This document shows positions 31,908-42,008 of a DNA stretch of 64,000 nt, in pieces. A program made the position numbers and the translations under genes. How positions within the stretch are numbered: the first letter of the stretch is position 1; every line of letters begins with the position of its first letter. Under the pieces are notes generated by a model. It worked only from the letters and a program-made list of their open reading frames with translations. It was not told the origin of the DNA and did no database searches. Source of the DNA: Planctomycetota bacterium (GTDB taxonomy: Bacteria; Planctomycetota; Planctomycetia; Gemmatales; Gemmataceae); the NCBI GenBank assembly GCA_016191165.1, contig JACPPF010000076.1, positions 1-64,000 on the forward strand. The letters are read 5' to 3'.

Positions 31908-32147
31908 ATGTCAGTAACCGTGAAAGCTCATTTTGACGGTCGCGTATTCGTACCCGATGAGCCGGTGCAATTGCCGGTCGGTTTTGAATTGCAAATCCCG
32001 ATTGACATGCCGGCAAAGCCGTCCGCCGGCACAACGCTTGGCCAACTGGCGGAAATCGCCAGCCAGTTTCCCGCCAATCCGGAATTGGCGTCCGACCTGG
32101 CGGCCCAGCACGACCACTATCTATACGGGCTTCCAAAGCGGCCATGA
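31908..32147 (+). CDS. DUF104-type antitoxin
   Basis: 79 residues. GGAGGG lies seven bases before the ATG. The N-terminus VKAHFDGRVFVPDEPVQLPVG is the AF2212/DUF104 pattern (a small beta structure), followed by an acidic C-terminal tail (EIASQFPANPELASDLAAQ) that could block a toxin. It overlaps the PIN gene by four bases (ATGA), so the two are translated together. Confidence 0.82.
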   Translation: MSVTVKAHFDGRVFVPDEPVQLPVGFELQIPIDMPAKPSAGTTLGQLAEIASQFPANPELASDLAAQHDHYLYGLPKRP

Positions 32148-32551
32148 TCCTTGTTGATACCGGTTACGTGCTGGCGTTGGTGAACCCGGGTGATTCGTTG
32201 CACCAGCGCGCCCGGGCATGGGCAGGCGCGATCACCGAGCCGCTAATCGTCACGGAATACGTTCTCTGGGAAATCGTCAATTCGCTGTCGCTCCCCGTGG
32301 ATCGACCGAAGGCCCGCGCCGTTGTCAGTAGCCTGCGGGCCGCGTCCGACTGTGAAGTAATCCCCGCCAGTGGCGAGTTATTCGACGCGGGCCTCGACTT
32401 GCACGCTCGACGGCCCGACAAGGAGTGGTCGCTCACCGATTGCATCTCATTCGTCGTAATGCAGAGGCGCGGCCTGACCCGTGCGCTCGCGCACGACCAT
32501 CATTTCGAGCAAGCGGGCTTCGAGGCCTTGCTGCGGCGAGATCCCGCTTGA
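32144..32551 (+). CDS. PIN-domain (VapC-like) ribonuclease toxin
   Basis: 135 residues, typical VapC size. Acidic active-site residues are Asp5 in MILVDTGYVLALVN, Glu in VTEYVLWEIVNSLS, Asp in WSLTDCISFVVMQ and the Asp of LAHDHHFEQAGF. Predicted to cut RNA when free and to be held inactive by the upstream DUF104 protein. Its ATG overlaps the antitoxin stop codon. Confidence 0.88.
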   Translation: MILVDTGYVLALVNPGDSLHQRARAWAGAITEPLIVTEYVLWEIVNSLSLPVDRPKARAVVSSLRAASDCEVIPASGELFDAGLDLHARRPDKEWSLTDCISFVVMQRRGLTRALAHDHHFEQAGFEALLRRDPA

Positions 32552-36484: not shown

Positions 36485-37390
36485 ATGGCCCAGTTGAAAA
36501 AAATCGTCGATCCATTTGGAGAGGTCAACGTGCATCCGCAACCCGGCGGCAGACTTCGCGTGACGGCAACCATCCTCATGGAGCCGCGCCGCGAAGGCAC
36601 GCAGACCGGCATCGCCCTCGACGGCTCGGCGTCCATGTCGAGTCTCTACGGCGAGGAAGAAAGTCCCGGCTTCTTCGCCAGCCTCTTCGGCGCCAAGAAG
36701 ACGACAACCCGCAACGAGATCACGCCGGTCGCCCAGAAAGTGTGCGCCTATCTCGCGCGCAAGCTCGATGCCGATGGCGGCACGACCTGCATCTACTGGG
36801 CGACGGGGCCCGCTGGCAGCAAGATCGAGGTCATCGGTGATCTCACCGCCGACGACGCGGAAAAACACATTTTCGGCCCGCCCCAGGACTTTGGCACCGG
36901 GACGCAGCTCCTGCCGGCGGTTCGTTATTTCGTCGATCGTTTCAAGGATGCGCCCTGGGGCTTTTACGTCTTCATCACCGATGGCGAGCTGCACGACCTT
37001 GACGCGGTCAAAAACTACAGCATCCGCCACGCGCGCGACGTTGCCGCCGGTCGGGCCAAGCCGGTGAAGTTCGTTCTCATCGGCATTGGGCCGAACGTCA
37101 ACGAAGATCAGATGGAGCAACTCGACGACCTCGACACCGGTACGGAGATCGACCTATGGGATCACAAGCTCGCGGCCGAGATGCGCGTCTTGCAGGAGAT
37201 TTTTGCCGAGGTCGTCGATAAAAACGCCCGCGTTGCGGACAACGGCAAGATTGTCGCACCCAACGGGCAAGTCGTGAAAAACTACTCCGACACGGGTTTG
37301 CCGGCGCTACTACAATTCGAGTTGCCCGCCGGCGCGACGCATTTCGTGCTCGAAGTGGATGGAAAACAGATCAAACAGGACCTGGTTTAA
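36485..37390 (+). CDS. Cytosolic VWA-type protein (first of a tandem pair)
   Basis: 301 residues, no signal peptide. It opens MAQLKKIVDPFGEVNVHP, and residues 42-51 are IALDGSASMS with the MIDAS pattern D46-x-S48-x-S50. Later GGTTCIYWATGP and WGFYVFITDGEL (Asp of MIDAS) complete the metal site. VWA domains bind partners through Mg2+. The C-terminal 60 residues (NGQVVKNYSDTGLPALLQFELPAGATHFVLEVDGK) form a beta-rich domain shared with the next gene. Possibly in one transcript with the paralogue and the subtilisin-like gene downstream. Confidence 0.75.
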   Translation: MAQLKKIVDPFGEVNVHPQPGGRLRVTATILMEPRREGTQTGIALDGSASMSSLYGEEESPGFFASLFGAKKTTTRNEITPVAQKVCAYLARKLDADGGTTCIYWATGPAGSKIEVIGDLTADDAEKHIFGPPQDFGTGTQLLPAVRYFVDRFKDAPWGFYVFITDGELHDLDAVKNYSIRHARDVAAGRAKPVKFVLIGIGPNVNEDQMEQLDDLDTGTEIDLWDHKLAAEMRVLQEIFAEVVDKNARVADNGKIVAPNGQVVKNYSDTGLPALLQFELPAGATHFVLEVDGKQIKQDLV

Positions 37391-37392
37391 TG

Positions 37393-37444
37393 CCGCATTC
37401 GTTTAGCGCCCGCGTGACGCCATGCGGGCGCTAAACGAATGCGG
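37393..37444. repeat. Dispersed palindrome, family B, perfect copy 2
   Basis: Arms of 21 bases at 37393-37413 and 37424-37444, perfectly paired, around GTGACGCCAT. It starts two bases after the first VWA stop codon and lies before the second VWA gene. Confidence 0.85.
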
Positions 37445-37465
37445 ATTTACCAAAAGGATTCACCC

Positions 37466-38695
37466 ATGGCACAACTCAAACACGTCGTCGAACCTTTCGG
37501 CGAGGTCAATGTCTATCCCGGACCCAATGGCGGCACACGCGTTTGGGCGTCCATCCTCATGGAGCCGCGCAAGGAAGGGGCGCAGACCGGCATCGCCATC
37601 GATGGCTCCGGCTCCATGCGAAAAATGTTCGGTCAGGACACCGGCGGGGGAGTCGTTTCGTCGATCTTCGCCAAGCCCAGGCTGGAGAATCATGTCTCAC
37701 CCGTGGCGCAGAAGCTCTGCGCGTATCTGGCACGCACCATCGACGCCGACGGGGGCACGACCTGCATCTACTGGGCCGTCGGGCCCAATGGCAGCCAGGT
37801 CGAGGTGGTCGGCGATCTTCGTGCCGAGCAGGCGGAGACCCACAACTTCAAGGGGCCCAGCGATTTCGGCACTGGCACGCTGCTTTTGCCCGCGGTAAAG
37901 TATTTCGTCGAGCGCTTCAAGGACGCGCCGTGGGGCTTCTACATCTTCATCACGGACGGCGAGTTGTTTGACCTCGAAGAAGTCAAGCTCTACACCAAAT
38001 GGCTCGCCAAGGAGATCGCCGGCAATCGCCGCAACCCGGTCAAGTTCGTCCTCATTGGCCTCGGCGCCGACGCCAACGAACGGCAACTCGAGGAACTCGA
38101 CGATCTGGAAACAGGCACCGAGATCGACCTCTGGGATCACAAGATGGCGTCCGAGATGCGGCAGTTGCAAGACATCTTCGCCGAGGTCGTGGACCGCAAC
38201 GCCCGCGTTGCGGAGACAGGCAAGATTCTCGACCCGCAAGGGCGCGTGATACGTGATTTTTCGGACACGGGCCTGCCTGCGCTCTTGCGTTTCGTCATGC
38301 CGGCCGGGGCGCAGTATTTCACGCTGGAGGTCAACGGGCAGCGCATCCATCAACCGCTGGCGGACAACGTCGCGACCCCGGCGCCCGTGGCGCCCGTGAT
38401 TCCAACCGTGACGCCGGTTTCCCCGGCGCCGCCGGTGATCCCCGCCGTGCCGGTGTCGCCGATGATGAAGCAACAGACCGCGCCGCCAATGGTGTCGCCC
38501 GCCGTCCCAGGGATGCAACCGCCAGCTCCACCGTCGATTCCCAAGAAACCCGAGAAGGAATGGGACAAGGACCCCATCGACCTCCAGATGGAAGAGTTGG
38601 CCAAGAGCATCGACCTGGAATTCGCCGACCCAAGTCAGCCCCAATCGCTGGACGATCTGAATCTCGACAAGAACGACGATTCCAAGAAGAAGTAA
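37466..38695 (+). CDS. Cytosolic VWA-type protein with Pro-rich extension (second of a tandem pair)
   Basis: 409 residues. The first 300 parallel the preceding gene: MAQLKHVVEPFGEVNVYP, then IAIDGSGSMRK (MIDAS), GGTTCIYWAVGP, FGTGTLLLPAVKYFVERFKDAPWGFYIFITDGELFDL. The same C-terminal beta domain follows (RDFSDTGLPALLRFVMPAG). It then adds a Pro/Val-rich linker of about 70 residues and an acidic C-terminus (EWDKDPIDLQMEELAKSIDLEF...) that may bind a partner. The duplicated core and added tail suggest one copy gained a new contact. Confidence 0.75.
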   Translation: MAQLKHVVEPFGEVNVYPGPNGGTRVWASILMEPRKEGAQTGIAIDGSGSMRKMFGQDTGGGVVSSIFAKPRLENHVSPVAQKLCAYLARTIDADGGTTCIYWAVGPNGSQVEVVGDLRAEQAETHNFKGPSDFGTGTLLLPAVKYFVERFKDAPWGFYIFITDGELFDLEEVKLYTKWLAKEIAGNRRNPVKFVLIGLGADANERQLEELDDLETGTEIDLWDHKMASEMRQLQDIFAEVVDRNARVAETGKILDPQGRVIRDFSDTGLPALLRFVMPAGAQYFTLEVNGQRIHQPLADNVATPAPVAPVIPTVTPVSPAPPVIPAVPVSPMMKQQTAPPMVSPAVPGMQPPAPPSIPKKPEKEWDKDPIDLQMEELAKSIDLEFADPSQPQSLDDLNLDKNDDSKKK

Positions 38696-38813
38696 AGGTG
38701 ATCGTTCACAACCAGCCCGAGGCATGGGCAAGAGCATTTTTTGCTTACGCCGCGGGCTGGGAATCCCTCGCCACGGGGCTAAACTCCAGGCGCCGGTTTG
38801 TTATGATGCAAGC

Positions 38814-39647
38814 ATGAGCGATGTGTTCGACGACCTTTTCAGCCTGATCACGCCGGAGCGCTTGCTGCTCGATTCCCGCGCGAACGGCGAGGGGGTCGCG
38901 GTATGCGTGATTGATAGTGGCGTCGAGTCGTCCGTTCTGCGGGCGAAGCACGGGCCCGACCTCAAGCCGATTCAGGGCGCGGTCTTCACCGCCGATTGCG
39001 CCGAGCCATTGCCCTATGAAGGTCATCAGAGCACGCCGCACGGCACCACCGTCGCGGATATCCTTTTGACGCAAGCCCCCGCCATCCAGCTTTATTCCGC
39101 CGATGTATTCGGACCTGCGGGAACCTGCGAGGTCGAGACGGTCATCAAGGCGCTGCACTGGGCCTATGATGTGTGGAAGTGCAAGGTCATCAACCTCTCG
39201 CTCGGCGTCACCGAGCAAAAGCTCCAGCAACTTCCGAAAAAACAACAGTTACTGCGAACAATTGAAGAGGGCTATTTCAAGGACGTGCTGATCGTTGCCG
39301 CGGCGCACAACGATCATCCTTTTACGCGCAGTTATCCCGCCATGTTCGCGCCGCCGATTCTTTCCGTGGACAAGCAACTGTTCGGCAACCCGCTGCAATT
39401 TGCCTATGAGCCGCATGAACAGATTGAGTTTCAGGCCCACGGCCGCGGCTATCTGGGTCCGTTCGCGATGGAGCCGGCAACGAGCTGGGCGGCGCCGCAT
39501 CTGAGCGGCATCGCGGCGAGGCTGTTGTCGCTACGGCCGGGTTTGAAGCCGTTTGAGGTGAAGACGCTGCTGTACTGGCTGTGTAAAAATGATTCGCGCA
39601 AGACGGCGGAGGGAACGGGAGTGCTTTCACTGCTGGTACGGGATTGA
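38814..39647 (+). CDS. Subtilisin-like (S8) serine protease without signal peptide
   Basis: 277 residues, shorter than secreted subtilisins. The catalytic residues are D34 (VCVIDSGVESS), H76 (STPHGTTVADIL), the oxyanion N166 (VAAAHNDHP) and S224 (EPATSWAAPHLSG), so the site is complete. There is no signal peptide, propeptide or membrane helix, so it should be cytosolic. It starts 118 bases after the second VWA stop, in the same direction. VWA plus S8 protease pairs occur in bacterial conflict-type systems, where the protease is an effector held inactive until a trigger appears; that role is a hypothesis here. Confidence 0.82.
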   Translation: MSDVFDDLFSLITPERLLLDSRANGEGVAVCVIDSGVESSVLRAKHGPDLKPIQGAVFTADCAEPLPYEGHQSTPHGTTVADILLTQAPAIQLYSADVFGPAGTCEVETVIKALHWAYDVWKCKVINLSLGVTEQKLQQLPKKQQLLRTIEEGYFKDVLIVAAAHNDHPFTRSYPAMFAPPILSVDKQLFGNPLQFAYEPHEQIEFQAHGRGYLGPFAMEPATSWAAPHLSGIAARLLSLRPGLKPFEVKTLLYWLCKNDSRKTAEGTGVLSLLVRD

Positions 39648-39719: not shown

Positions 39720-40109
39720 CTACATCGGCCTGGCGTGCTCGCTCCAGACCAAACCTGGGCCGTCAAGCACGATGGCCACATGATTGAGAACGTCGCGTCC
39801 GAGCATTCCGCAGGGGTGATCGATCAGCAGGAACCGGCCTTTGAAGGTTCGTCTCAAGAAAACGAGGTCCAGGTCGACGGCCTGCGCGGTGCTTTTCGTT
39901 CCGTCAAATCCCATGACCTCGTATCCCACGTCGAGTTTGGCCGAGGCGCCGATCTGCTGTGCAAACATGTTTGGAATCAACGAAACGTCAGCGCCGCTAT
40001 CAATTACCATAGGGACGCCTGCAATTGCGAGCCCAGTTTCCAGATGTCGCAAGGTAACGGTTGCGACGGGTGCGGGCGGCACGAAGTGAGCGTCATCATA
40101 CGCTACCAT
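39720..40109 (-). CDS. Retropepsin-like (clan AA) aspartyl protease
   Basis: 129 residues. The hallmark GVPMVIDSGADVSLIP (Asp-Ser/Thr-Gly-Ala) is followed by FAQQIG and, near the end, the second strand signature CGMLGRDVLNHVAIVLDG, as in retroviral and bacterial small clan AA proteases, which work as dimers. No signal peptide. Its ATG (40109) lies 14 bases inside the 3' end of the upstream DUF104-like gene, so the two form one transcription unit. Confidence 0.82.
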   Translation of the reverse strand: MVAYDDAHFVPPAPVATVTLRHLETGLAIAGVPMVIDSGADVSLIPNMFAQQIGASAKLDVGYEVMGFDGTKSTAQAVDLDLVFLRRTFKGRFLLIDHPCGMLGRDVLNHVAIVLDGPGLVWSEHARPM

Positions 40110-40311
40110 CGGCGGGTACCTCGGTTACTTCCTTCCTGAAATCCACGGCCTGCTCCGGGTGGCAAAGGTGTGGACTGGCAATTCGGCTCGGAGCGGTCAG
40201 GTCAGAGTCGGGCACGACGACGTAAACCGTCGCCCTTTCTGGCAGCCGAACATTCGGCGGAAGGCGGATTTGACCGTTTTCCACAATGCCGGAAAAGGTT
40301 ATGACATTCAT
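40096..40311 (-). CDS. DUF104-like antitoxin-type protein
   Basis: 71 residues. MNVITFSGIVENGQIRLPPN, then VRLPERATVYVVVPD, a small beta fold like the DUF104 antitoxin at 31908, followed by a polar tail. It ends inside the retropepsin-like gene, overlapping it by 14 bases. The arrangement is that of a toxin-antitoxin pair, with the protease in the toxin place; a biological role as antitoxin is inferred only. Confidence 0.6.
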   Translation of the reverse strand: MNVITFSGIVENGQIRLPPNVRLPERATVYVVVPDSDLTAPSRIASPHLCHPEQAVDFRKEVTEVPADGSV

Positions 40312-40451: not shown

Positions 40452-42008
40452 CTAGCTTCCGCTCCCCGACCCCCTCGGCGTCGGTTCGCGGCCATCGGTC
40501 CACGGGCCTTCGAGGCGCTGGTAAGCGGGCGGTTCGAGAAGGCTGCCGCGGGTGCCGCCGGTCCAGCCGATGACCTGCGTCGGCCGGCCGCGCTGGTGGC
40601 TGCGGCGTTCCAGGCGGGTGGCCCAGCTTGAATCGCCGACCACGGCGCGGCGGCGTTCGCGATCCCAGAACAAGACCTGGCCTTGACGGTAGCTTTGCAC
40701 GCCCATGTTCACAGTCGTGAACGCGGCGGCGCCGAGTTCCGGGGTGGAGAACGTTTCGCGATTGCGAGCGCGGACACACGAGAGGAAGTTTTCCCAGAGG
40801 GGTTGCGTGGCATCGCCCTCGGACATACCGTTGCCATGCCAGACGCTGTCGCGCCGTGCCGGCTGTCCGGCGATCGGGCGGTTCGTGGCTGCCTGGGGGA
40901 TGATTTCGTAGCCCCAGTCGCGCGCCGGGCGGCCGTCACGCATCACCTCGCGGCTGCCGAACTTCATCGTCCCGGTGTGTCCGCGGATGACCTCTTCGAT
41001 CGGATGATCGTTAATCATCGTCGCGGTGATGAGAAGCTGACAGCCCTCGTCGTAGTCGGCGACGATGGTGGCGACATCGGGCACATCGCGTCCATCGTAC
41101 TCCAGGTAGATGCCGCCGCCGCCGACCACGCGAGCCGGATAGCGCACGCCCATCGCCGAGATCAGACGCGTGACCCGGTGTACGAACAAATCCGTAAACA
41201 TGCCGCCGCCGAAGTTCCAGTAGCAACGCCACTGGGCGAAGATCGCCCGGTCGAACGGCATGTCCGGCGCGAGCGGCACGCCCTCCTCGACCGAAAAGCG
41301 ATTGCCCAGAAACATGGTCCAGTCGATGGTGCGCGGGTTCATGTCCTGCGTGAGTGGGTAGTAGCGCCACTGGCCGACGGTCGAGTTGCGGTAGTAGCTG
41401 GTCTGAGCCTGGCACACATGGCCGATGTCGCCGCGGCGGATCATCTCGTTGGCGCGGCGCAGGCTCGGATCGGCCATCCACTGCACGCCCACTTGCATCA
41501 CCACGTTGTTGCGCCGCACCGCATCGACGACGGCGTGGGCCTCAAAGATCGTCTTCGTCATCGGTTTCTCGCAATAGACATGCTTCCCCGCGTTGGCGGC
41601 GTCGATCGTCATGCGCGCATGCCAGTGGTCCGGCGTCGCGATGCAGACGGCATCGACCTCGCGCAGGCCCAGAATGCGGCGATAGTCTTTGTTCACGTGA
41701 ACGCGATCGTCCACGTTCAACCCGCAGCGGCGGGCCGAGGGATAAAGCCCCCGGCCATTACCGCGCCCGAGTTGGGGATTGCCGTCCCACACATCGCAAC
41801 ACGCGACCGGCCGCACCGAGTTGGCATTGGCTCGTTGCATGGCGAGAATCACATCGATATGCTGCTGGCAGCGCCCGCCGACGCCGAGAAAGGCGACGTT
41901 GATGCGCTGGTTGGCGCCCTGGGCCTGGGCGTACGTCTTGGCGTCAAGCGCCATCGCGGTGGTGGCGGCAGTCGCAGCAGTGGTTTTCAGGAACGTACGG
42001 CGTTTCAT
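40452..42008 (-). CDS. Exported Gfo/Idh/MocA oxidoreductase with Tat-type signal
   Basis: 518 residues. The N-terminus MKRRTFLKTTAATAATTAMALDAKTYAQAQG is a twin-arginine (RR) signal for export in folded, cofactor-loaded form. Then INVAFLGVGGRCQQHIDV (nucleotide motif), VDAVCIATPDHWHARMTIDAANAGKHVYCEKPM (EKP motif) and NFGGGMFTDLFVHRVTRLI. The last 150 residues, with WDRERRRAVVG, are the extended C-terminus common to planctomycete members. It probably oxidises a sugar or sugar derivative in the periplasm; substrate unknown. Confidence 0.87.
   Translation of the reverse strand: MKRRTFLKTTAATAATTAMALDAKTYAQAQGANQRINVAFLGVGGRCQQHIDVILAMQRANANSVRPVACCDVWDGNPQLGRGNGRGLYPSARRCGLNVDDRVHVNKDYRRILGLREVDAVCIATPDHWHARMTIDAANAGKHVYCEKPMTKTIFEAHAVVDAVRRNNVVMQVGVQWMADPSLRRANEMIRRGDIGHVCQAQTSYYRNSTVGQWRYYPLTQDMNPRTIDWTMFLGNRFSVEEGVPLAPDMPFDRAIFAQWRCYWNFGGGMFTDLFVHRVTRLISAMGVRYPARVVGGGGIYLEYDGRDVPDVATIVADYDEGCQLLITATMINDHPIEEVIRGHTGTMKFGSREVMRDGRPARDWGYEIIPQAATNRPIAGQPARRDSVWHGNGMSEGDATQPLWENFLSCVRARNRETFSTPELGAAAFTTVNMGVQSYRQGQVLFWDRERRRAVVGDSSWATRLERRSHQRGRPTQVIGWTGGTRGSLLEPPAYQRLEGPWTDGREPTPRGSGSGS

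Follow-up and report, generated by a model that had tools for sequence, protein, structure and literature searches.

Two small overlapping genes at positions 39720 to 40311 of the window (the whole 64,000-nucleotide stretch of planctomycete DNA analysed here, from a genome of 7.2 Mb in 183 contigs) raise the question of whether an aspartic protease can stand where a type II toxin-antitoxin (TA) module carries its toxin. The earlier note on this DNA, made from the sequence alone, had suggested such an arrangement. We examined the fold of the protease, its linkage with the small upstream gene across genomes, and the likeness of the pair to known systems.

The gene pair and the fold of its protease

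Both genes lie on the minus strand, the upstream one (P0001, 71 amino acids, 40096 to 40311) encoding an antitoxin-like partner and the downstream one (P0002, 129 amino acids, 39720 to 40109) a retropepsin-like protease. They overlap by 14 bases (40096 to 40109), which are read in two frames, as the C-terminus of P0001 (DGSV, stop) and as the N-terminus of P0002 (MVAYD). The motif VIDSGAD occupies residues 35 to 41 of P0002, with DSGA at residues 37 to 40; the gene sizes, the overlap and the intact motif were thus as the earlier note had described them. The flanking genes are ordinary and encode an S8 peptidase (38724 to 39647, plus strand) and a GFO/IDH/MocA oxidoreductase (40452 to 42008, minus strand). 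Scans at the pair found no terminator and no sigma-70-like promoter, the latter saying little for a planctomycete. Farther out, tandem related genes at 36485 to 37390 and 37439 to 38695 share 70% DNA identity with each other, and the second showed a weak vWA-TerF-like match. A sequence of about 40 bases (around 37400 to 37445), lying between two vWA-type genes, recurs dozens of times, nearly unchanged, in this genome and genus, and often matches both strands at one place, like a palindrome.

P0002 alone scored just below the Pfam cut-offs for RVP (19.6 vs. 20.7 bits) and gag-asp_proteas (21.7 vs. 28.2 bits), and reached 14.3 bits with TIGR03698 (clan AA, AF_0612 type), for which the NCBIfam cut-off is 57.35 bits. 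The profile of the protease family, built from a 35-row alignment (A4), matched HIV protease with an E value of 2e-11. P0002 was modelled by AF2 with a pLDDT of 90.6, and the EIAV and HIV proteases ranked first in the Foldseek search with the model (probability 1.00), the top match being EIAV protease (E 9.6e-6). Structural alignment with VIA-align gave a Z score of 12.2 for EIAV protease and one of 12.0 for APRc, a retropepsin of Rickettsia. The catalytic loop D37-S38-G39-A40-D41 (39987 to 40001, minus strand) agrees with the D-[ST]-G-[AS] pattern of retropepsin-like aspartic proteases of clan AA. The second, hydrophobic-hydrophobic-Gly motif of the retropepsin fold (MLGRD) was found in GMLGRDVLN at residues 101 to 109 (39783 to 39809, minus strand), the equivalent of IIGRN in HIV protease. 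D37, A40, D41, G104, R105 and N109 were invariant in A4 and, when aligned to HIV protease, mapped to the catalytic loop (D25, A28 and D29) and the GRN loop, respectively. Profile and predicted model thus agree with the earlier note that P0002 is an aspartyl protease by family, that is, a retropepsin-fold protein, and its assignment together with its relatives is firm. It is probably cytoplasmic, because no signal peptide or membrane segment was apparent in its sequence.

Linkage across genomes and the two parts of the partner

A contig scan with the five closest proteases (alignment A2) retrieved 47 loci, 44 of which belonged to one branch of the protease tree (clade A, 100/99 support). Three loci of the same scan (L070, L071 and L073) were left out because they encode long proteins without a small partner. 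Whole-genome searches added six further clade-A loci, and with L165 taken as the same contig as L058, 49 distinct loci of clade A remain in addition to the window's own. P0002 alone as the query gave no match against named genome contigs, whereas the clade-A alignment as the query succeeded. The proteases of clade A were directly preceded by a small gene with a characteristic tail in all 49 of these loci, which rejects a chance overlap of two unrelated genes. The automatic tail test was positive for 49 of 50 rows, and the tail of the remaining one (L072) was seen by eye at 2709 to 2915. The overlap was exactly 14 bases in 23 of the 49 loci. The loci came from at least seven phyla (Planctomycetota, Chloroflexota, Acidobacteriota, Myxococcota/Deltaproteobacteria, Latescibacterota, Omnitrophota and Pseudomonadota), although nearly all of them are contigs of metagenome-assembled genomes (MAGs), so that artefacts may account for some of the phylum assignments and frameshifts.

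The partner itself had no match in Pfam or NCBIfam, and its AF2 model was poor (pLDDT 72.6). The likeness to DUF104 claimed for it emerged only through its relatives: PF01954 (AF2212-like) matched 16 of the 35 members of the P0001 alignment at E≤1 (best 2.2e-9), and a partner profile (A5) retrieved true DUF104 genes via its first ~40 positions. These matches point to a DUF104/AF2212-like head at residues 1 to 38 of P0001 (40198 to 40311, minus strand). A likeness of the A5 profile to ribosomal protein L1 in the PDB (E 0.012) was weak and was taken as chance. For comparison, the window holds a second pair on the plus strand (31908 to 32551), in which a DUF104-like gene (31908 to 32147) overlaps a clear PIN gene (32144 to 32551, E 2.6e-13). 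The protein at 31908 had been called a genuine DUF104 antitoxin; it scored below the Pfam cut-off (13.5 vs. 21.6 bits), but does overlap the PIN gene.

The protease-linked tail of P0001, IASPHLCHPEQAVDFRKEV, covers residues 44 to 62 (40126 to 40182, minus strand). Its consensus among the partners is I-x-S-P-R/H-L-x-x-P-E-Q-A-x-D-F-x-x-E-V, and the motif of the protease partners can be written as [ST]P[RHK][LF]...F...V. The [ST]-P-[RHK]-[LF] element was present in the last third of 40 of 40 aligned partners, followed in most by PEQAxDFxxEV. None of 37 protease-free DUF104-like proteins from relatives showed the tail motif; its frequency was 0.6% among residue shuffles, and 4 of 242 small ORFs of the window contained it. 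We also considered the DUF104 head as the protease-specific part and rejected it, since the heads vary and the tail is constant. That the protease is accompanied by the tail and not by the DUF104 head had escaped the earlier note.

Among the 49 loci, the heads were DUF104-like in 40, of the Phd/YefM family in two, DUF2281-like in two, RHH-like in one and of other types in four. The Phd/YefM heads (PF02604) were above the Pfam cut-off (L069, 1.3e-11; L166, 1.1e-12). The assignments to DUF2281 (L059, with a weak E value of 0.016, and L042, by eye) and to an RHH/VapB-like antitoxin (L060, VAPB_antitox, with a weak E value of 0.052) were less firm. A divergent head was common to L040, L053 and L054, and that of L067 looked helical. 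On the whole protease tree, the head type changed at least five times, including one change between DUF104 and DUF5678. Conversely, DUF104 heads were also found before PIN genes in the genus and family of the window, and in L105 a DUF104 head (PF01954, 5.6e-12) is joined to a TacA1-type tail (PF08681, above the cut-off) before a GNAT gene (2.8e-11). This chimeric antitoxin (L105/L148, G299:C231, positions 1291 to 2257) is in itself a clean case of head/tail exchange. Judged by these sequences, either part can be swapped for another, with the tail following the effector. Type II antitoxins have exchangeable heads and effector-linked tails. The tail of the partner tracks its effector in the same way, and the protease therefore appears to occupy the toxin place. 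The gene anatomy is likewise that of a type II TA module: two small adjacent genes on the same strand, the antitoxin-like one first and usually overlapping the other.

A protease substrate would, however, equally be expected to show a constant tail of this kind. Its constancy could thus mark a cleavage site, and the main rival explanation is a switch by regulated proteolysis. The partner would be a repressor whose tail is cut by the protease upon a signal, freeing the target genes, a mechanism put forward for the ImmR/ImmA (Xre/COG2856) pairs. The heads indeed belong to DNA-binding antitoxin families, and pairs of a protease with a repressor are known (COG2856-Xre, PMC2701414).

Spread, decay and a shared chromosomal spot

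The protease is patchily distributed. With the A4 profile at E≤1e-8, matches were found in 10 of 301 genomes of Chloroflexota (the phylum of L034) and 12 of 297 genomes of Acidobacteriota (the phylum of L033), and in the window's own phylum, 10 of 294 genomes matched P0002; in each count, not all matches belong to clade A. A presence in a few per cent of the sampled genomes led us to reject a housekeeping protease. The closest protease to P0002 (61% identity, L027) came from a deltaproteobacterial MAG, and the phylum label changed 12 times over the 29 labelled rows of the tree, as a raw count. Of 406 locus pairs, only 14 had a flanking ORF in common, and most of these were close relatives. This is consistent with a stand-alone cassette, although not invariably so, since two Acidobacteriota loci share one downstream gene. 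The comparison of flanking ORFs between loci found no third, regulated gene conserved beside the pair. Plasmids, phages and viral contigs yielded no copies, so the evidence for mobility is indirect. The question put by the earlier note, whether the two genes are always linked and mobile, is therefore answered with a yes for linkage within clade A and only indirectly for mobility. Rare linkage or a housekeeping role, which that note had named as the findings that would speak against its proposal, were looked for, and the linkage in 49 of 49 loci and the patchy presence showed the opposite. As a separate observation, the genome of L035 (G352, Ardenticatenaceae) contained at least eight retropepsin-like matches.

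Decay of the pair was one-sided. The protease frame was broken with the partner open in 13 of the 49 loci, and the reverse was seen in none, whereas random breaks over both lengths would hit the partner in about one third of cases; some of the protease breaks are possibly shared between relatives or due to assembly errors. The pattern of breaks leans towards a keeping of the partner.

The surroundings of the pair were compared in sister genomes, five of which contain the oxidoreductase found beside it. On the pair's side of this gene, G298 carries a DUF104 remnant of matching type that lacks both tail and protease, G295 carries DUF433 with DUF5615 (a PIN-like pair), and G297 an HTH_17 gene with PIN. 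G295 has a DUF104-protease pair of its own on another contig. The S8 gene of the other flank lies on different contigs in the sisters; the pair of the window is therefore at a junction that differs between sisters, a reading limited by contig breaks. With different TA modules found 3' of the oxidoreductase (window 39720 to 40311, L214, L217 and L218), this spot is possibly an exchange hot spot. Overall, the protease loci are patchy, horizontally spread, present in several copies, and share sites with other TA modules, as is typical of TA modules.

These observations bear on the cleavage of a repressor tail. A broken protease beside an open partner frame (13 vs. 0) fits a TA module better than a switch, as does the presence of PIN and DUF5615 modules at this spot in sister genomes, and a switch would lead one to expect a regulated gene beside the pair. 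We consider the switch rather unlikely. Our preferred reading, to which we give a probability of roughly 60%, is that the pair is a type II TA-like module whose effector would be a cytoplasmic retropepsin-type aspartic protease, neutralised by the tail of the partner. We favour it because of the linkage, the exchange of heads, the specificity of the tail, the TA modules at the same spot, the patchiness, the stand-alone cassette, the decay of the protease and the retropepsin fold. The placing of an aspartyl protease in the toxin position by the earlier note is thus supported by gene anatomy and comparison, that is, by linkage, overlap, heads, tail, spread and the TA modules at the same spot.

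In a TA-like module of this kind, the head (DUF104-like here and Phd/YefM, DUF2281-like or RHH-like elsewhere) would form dimers and probably occupy its own promoter, giving autoregulation. The 14-base overlap would couple translation, so that partner and protease are made together, and P0002 would act as a homodimer. The tail is probably what restrains the protease, and may bind in its active-site cleft or prevent it from dimerising. When the partner is lost or degraded, the freed protease could cut proteins of the cell or of a phage and become toxic.

The wider family and comparison with known systems

Distant retropepsin-like proteins (about 30 to 40% identity) were preceded by DUF5678 (PF18929) proteins, and 14 of 19 DUF5678 loci in relatives contained a retropepsin-like ORF. 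RHH-like heads were seen in some of these partners (L095, L097 and L169), with weak Pfam support for two. Similar tails were present in several, for example SPRLLPN in L097, FRSPRIAPER in L169 and IPSPRVGKN in L098. From its sequence context, DUF5678 (in L095, L097, L169 and L182 to L200) looks like a second antitoxin class. In 7 of 16 DUF5678-linked proteases (one branch, with L018, L020 to L026 and others), the catalytic Gly is replaced, giving D-x-A-A-D; such proteins are possibly inactive and kept with their partner. Parts of the wider family may therefore do without activity, and the pair in the window could be a degenerate, TA-derived one in which the retropepsin fold is a mere binding scaffold. 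Every full-length clade-A protease examined, including that of the window, nevertheless retains D-[STC]-G-[ASV]-D as well as the GRD/GRN loop, partly as a result of selection, since the set was mostly gathered with a pattern requiring D-x-G-A and is biased towards intact active sites. We regard a scaffold without protease activity as very improbable.

Returning to an active protease under the control of a tail, the pair may represent a new, possibly abortive-infection, class of TA system. A retroviral-type protease would be the toxin, the tail a pseudosubstrate or dimerisation inhibitor, the DNA-binding head freely exchanged, and DUF5678 the second antitoxin class of a wider system. We put this full version forward tentatively, as a real possibility that falls short of being our expectation. 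To our knowledge, no protease toxin has been established in type II TA modules. We found no description of a retropepsin or aspartyl protease in a TA module in a search of open-licence PMC papers, a scope that makes the absence weak evidence. DUF104 as a predicted PIN antitoxin, bacterial retropepsins and the zincin-Xre pair are already known, whereas a retropepsin in a TA-like module is apparently undescribed. If the protease is a toxin, retropepsin proteolysis would join the activities of type II toxins, and bacterial retropepsins, whose functions are mostly unknown, would gain a concrete role. The tails would then provide genetically encoded peptides that inhibit a retropepsin-fold enzyme, and a role would be suggested for DUF5678, a family of unknown function. 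Furthermore, the head/tail exchange predicts inhibition of the protease by the tail alone.

Bacterial retropepsin-like aspartic proteases akin to P0002 include RimB, RloA and APRc (PMC4140852), of which APRc alone was aligned structurally here. RimB trims the tails of RpsF, and RloA is secreted (PMC12239564). RimB and RloA, which have been characterised, are regulators and not toxins (PMC11957791, PMC12239564), which suggests that the pair could instead serve a non-toxic accessory or quality-control function, with the protease processing specific cell proteins and the partner acting as an adaptor, either for substrate delivery or in the regulation of expression. Both, however, are described in operons with ATP-grasp partners rather than antitoxin-type ones; furthermore, an exchange of heads among antitoxin families would be unexpected of an adaptor, and the rarity of the pair among sampled genomes speaks against housekeeping. 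This explanation seems improbable to us, and we compare the pair below as a TA-like module.

Component B of the PADLOC defence candidate PDC-M08 is a distant retropepsin-like protein, and one of its members (L201) has a small upstream gene. The match to P0002 is weak, however (E 0.0046), and PADLOC models gave no match to the scanned partners. The ImmR/ImmA (Xre/COG2856) pairs, predicted to be TA-related (PMC2701414), resemble the pair in joining a protease to a small DNA-binding protein. Their head is of the Xre type, however, and COG2856 (ImmA/IrrE) is a zinc metalloprotease with HEXXH and an unrelated fold; P0002 has the fold of an aspartic protease and no HEXXH in its sequence. The partners in L069 and L166 share their heads with Phd/YefM antitoxins, but carry the protease-linked tail and are followed by a retropepsin rather than Doc or YoeB. 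The closest parallel in gene anatomy lies in the modules of DUF104/COG2880 (AF2212-like) with PIN, which were predicted as VapBC-like by Makarova et al. in 2009 (PMC2701414), in agreement with the usual pairing named in the earlier note. In these modules, as at 31908 to 32551 of the window, a small DUF104-type upstream gene overlaps a downstream effector gene. The gene 3' of P0001 encodes a retropepsin-like protease instead of a PIN nuclease, and its partner carries the SPRL tail, which is absent from the DUF104-like protein of the window's PIN pair and from the other DUF104-like proteins without a protease.
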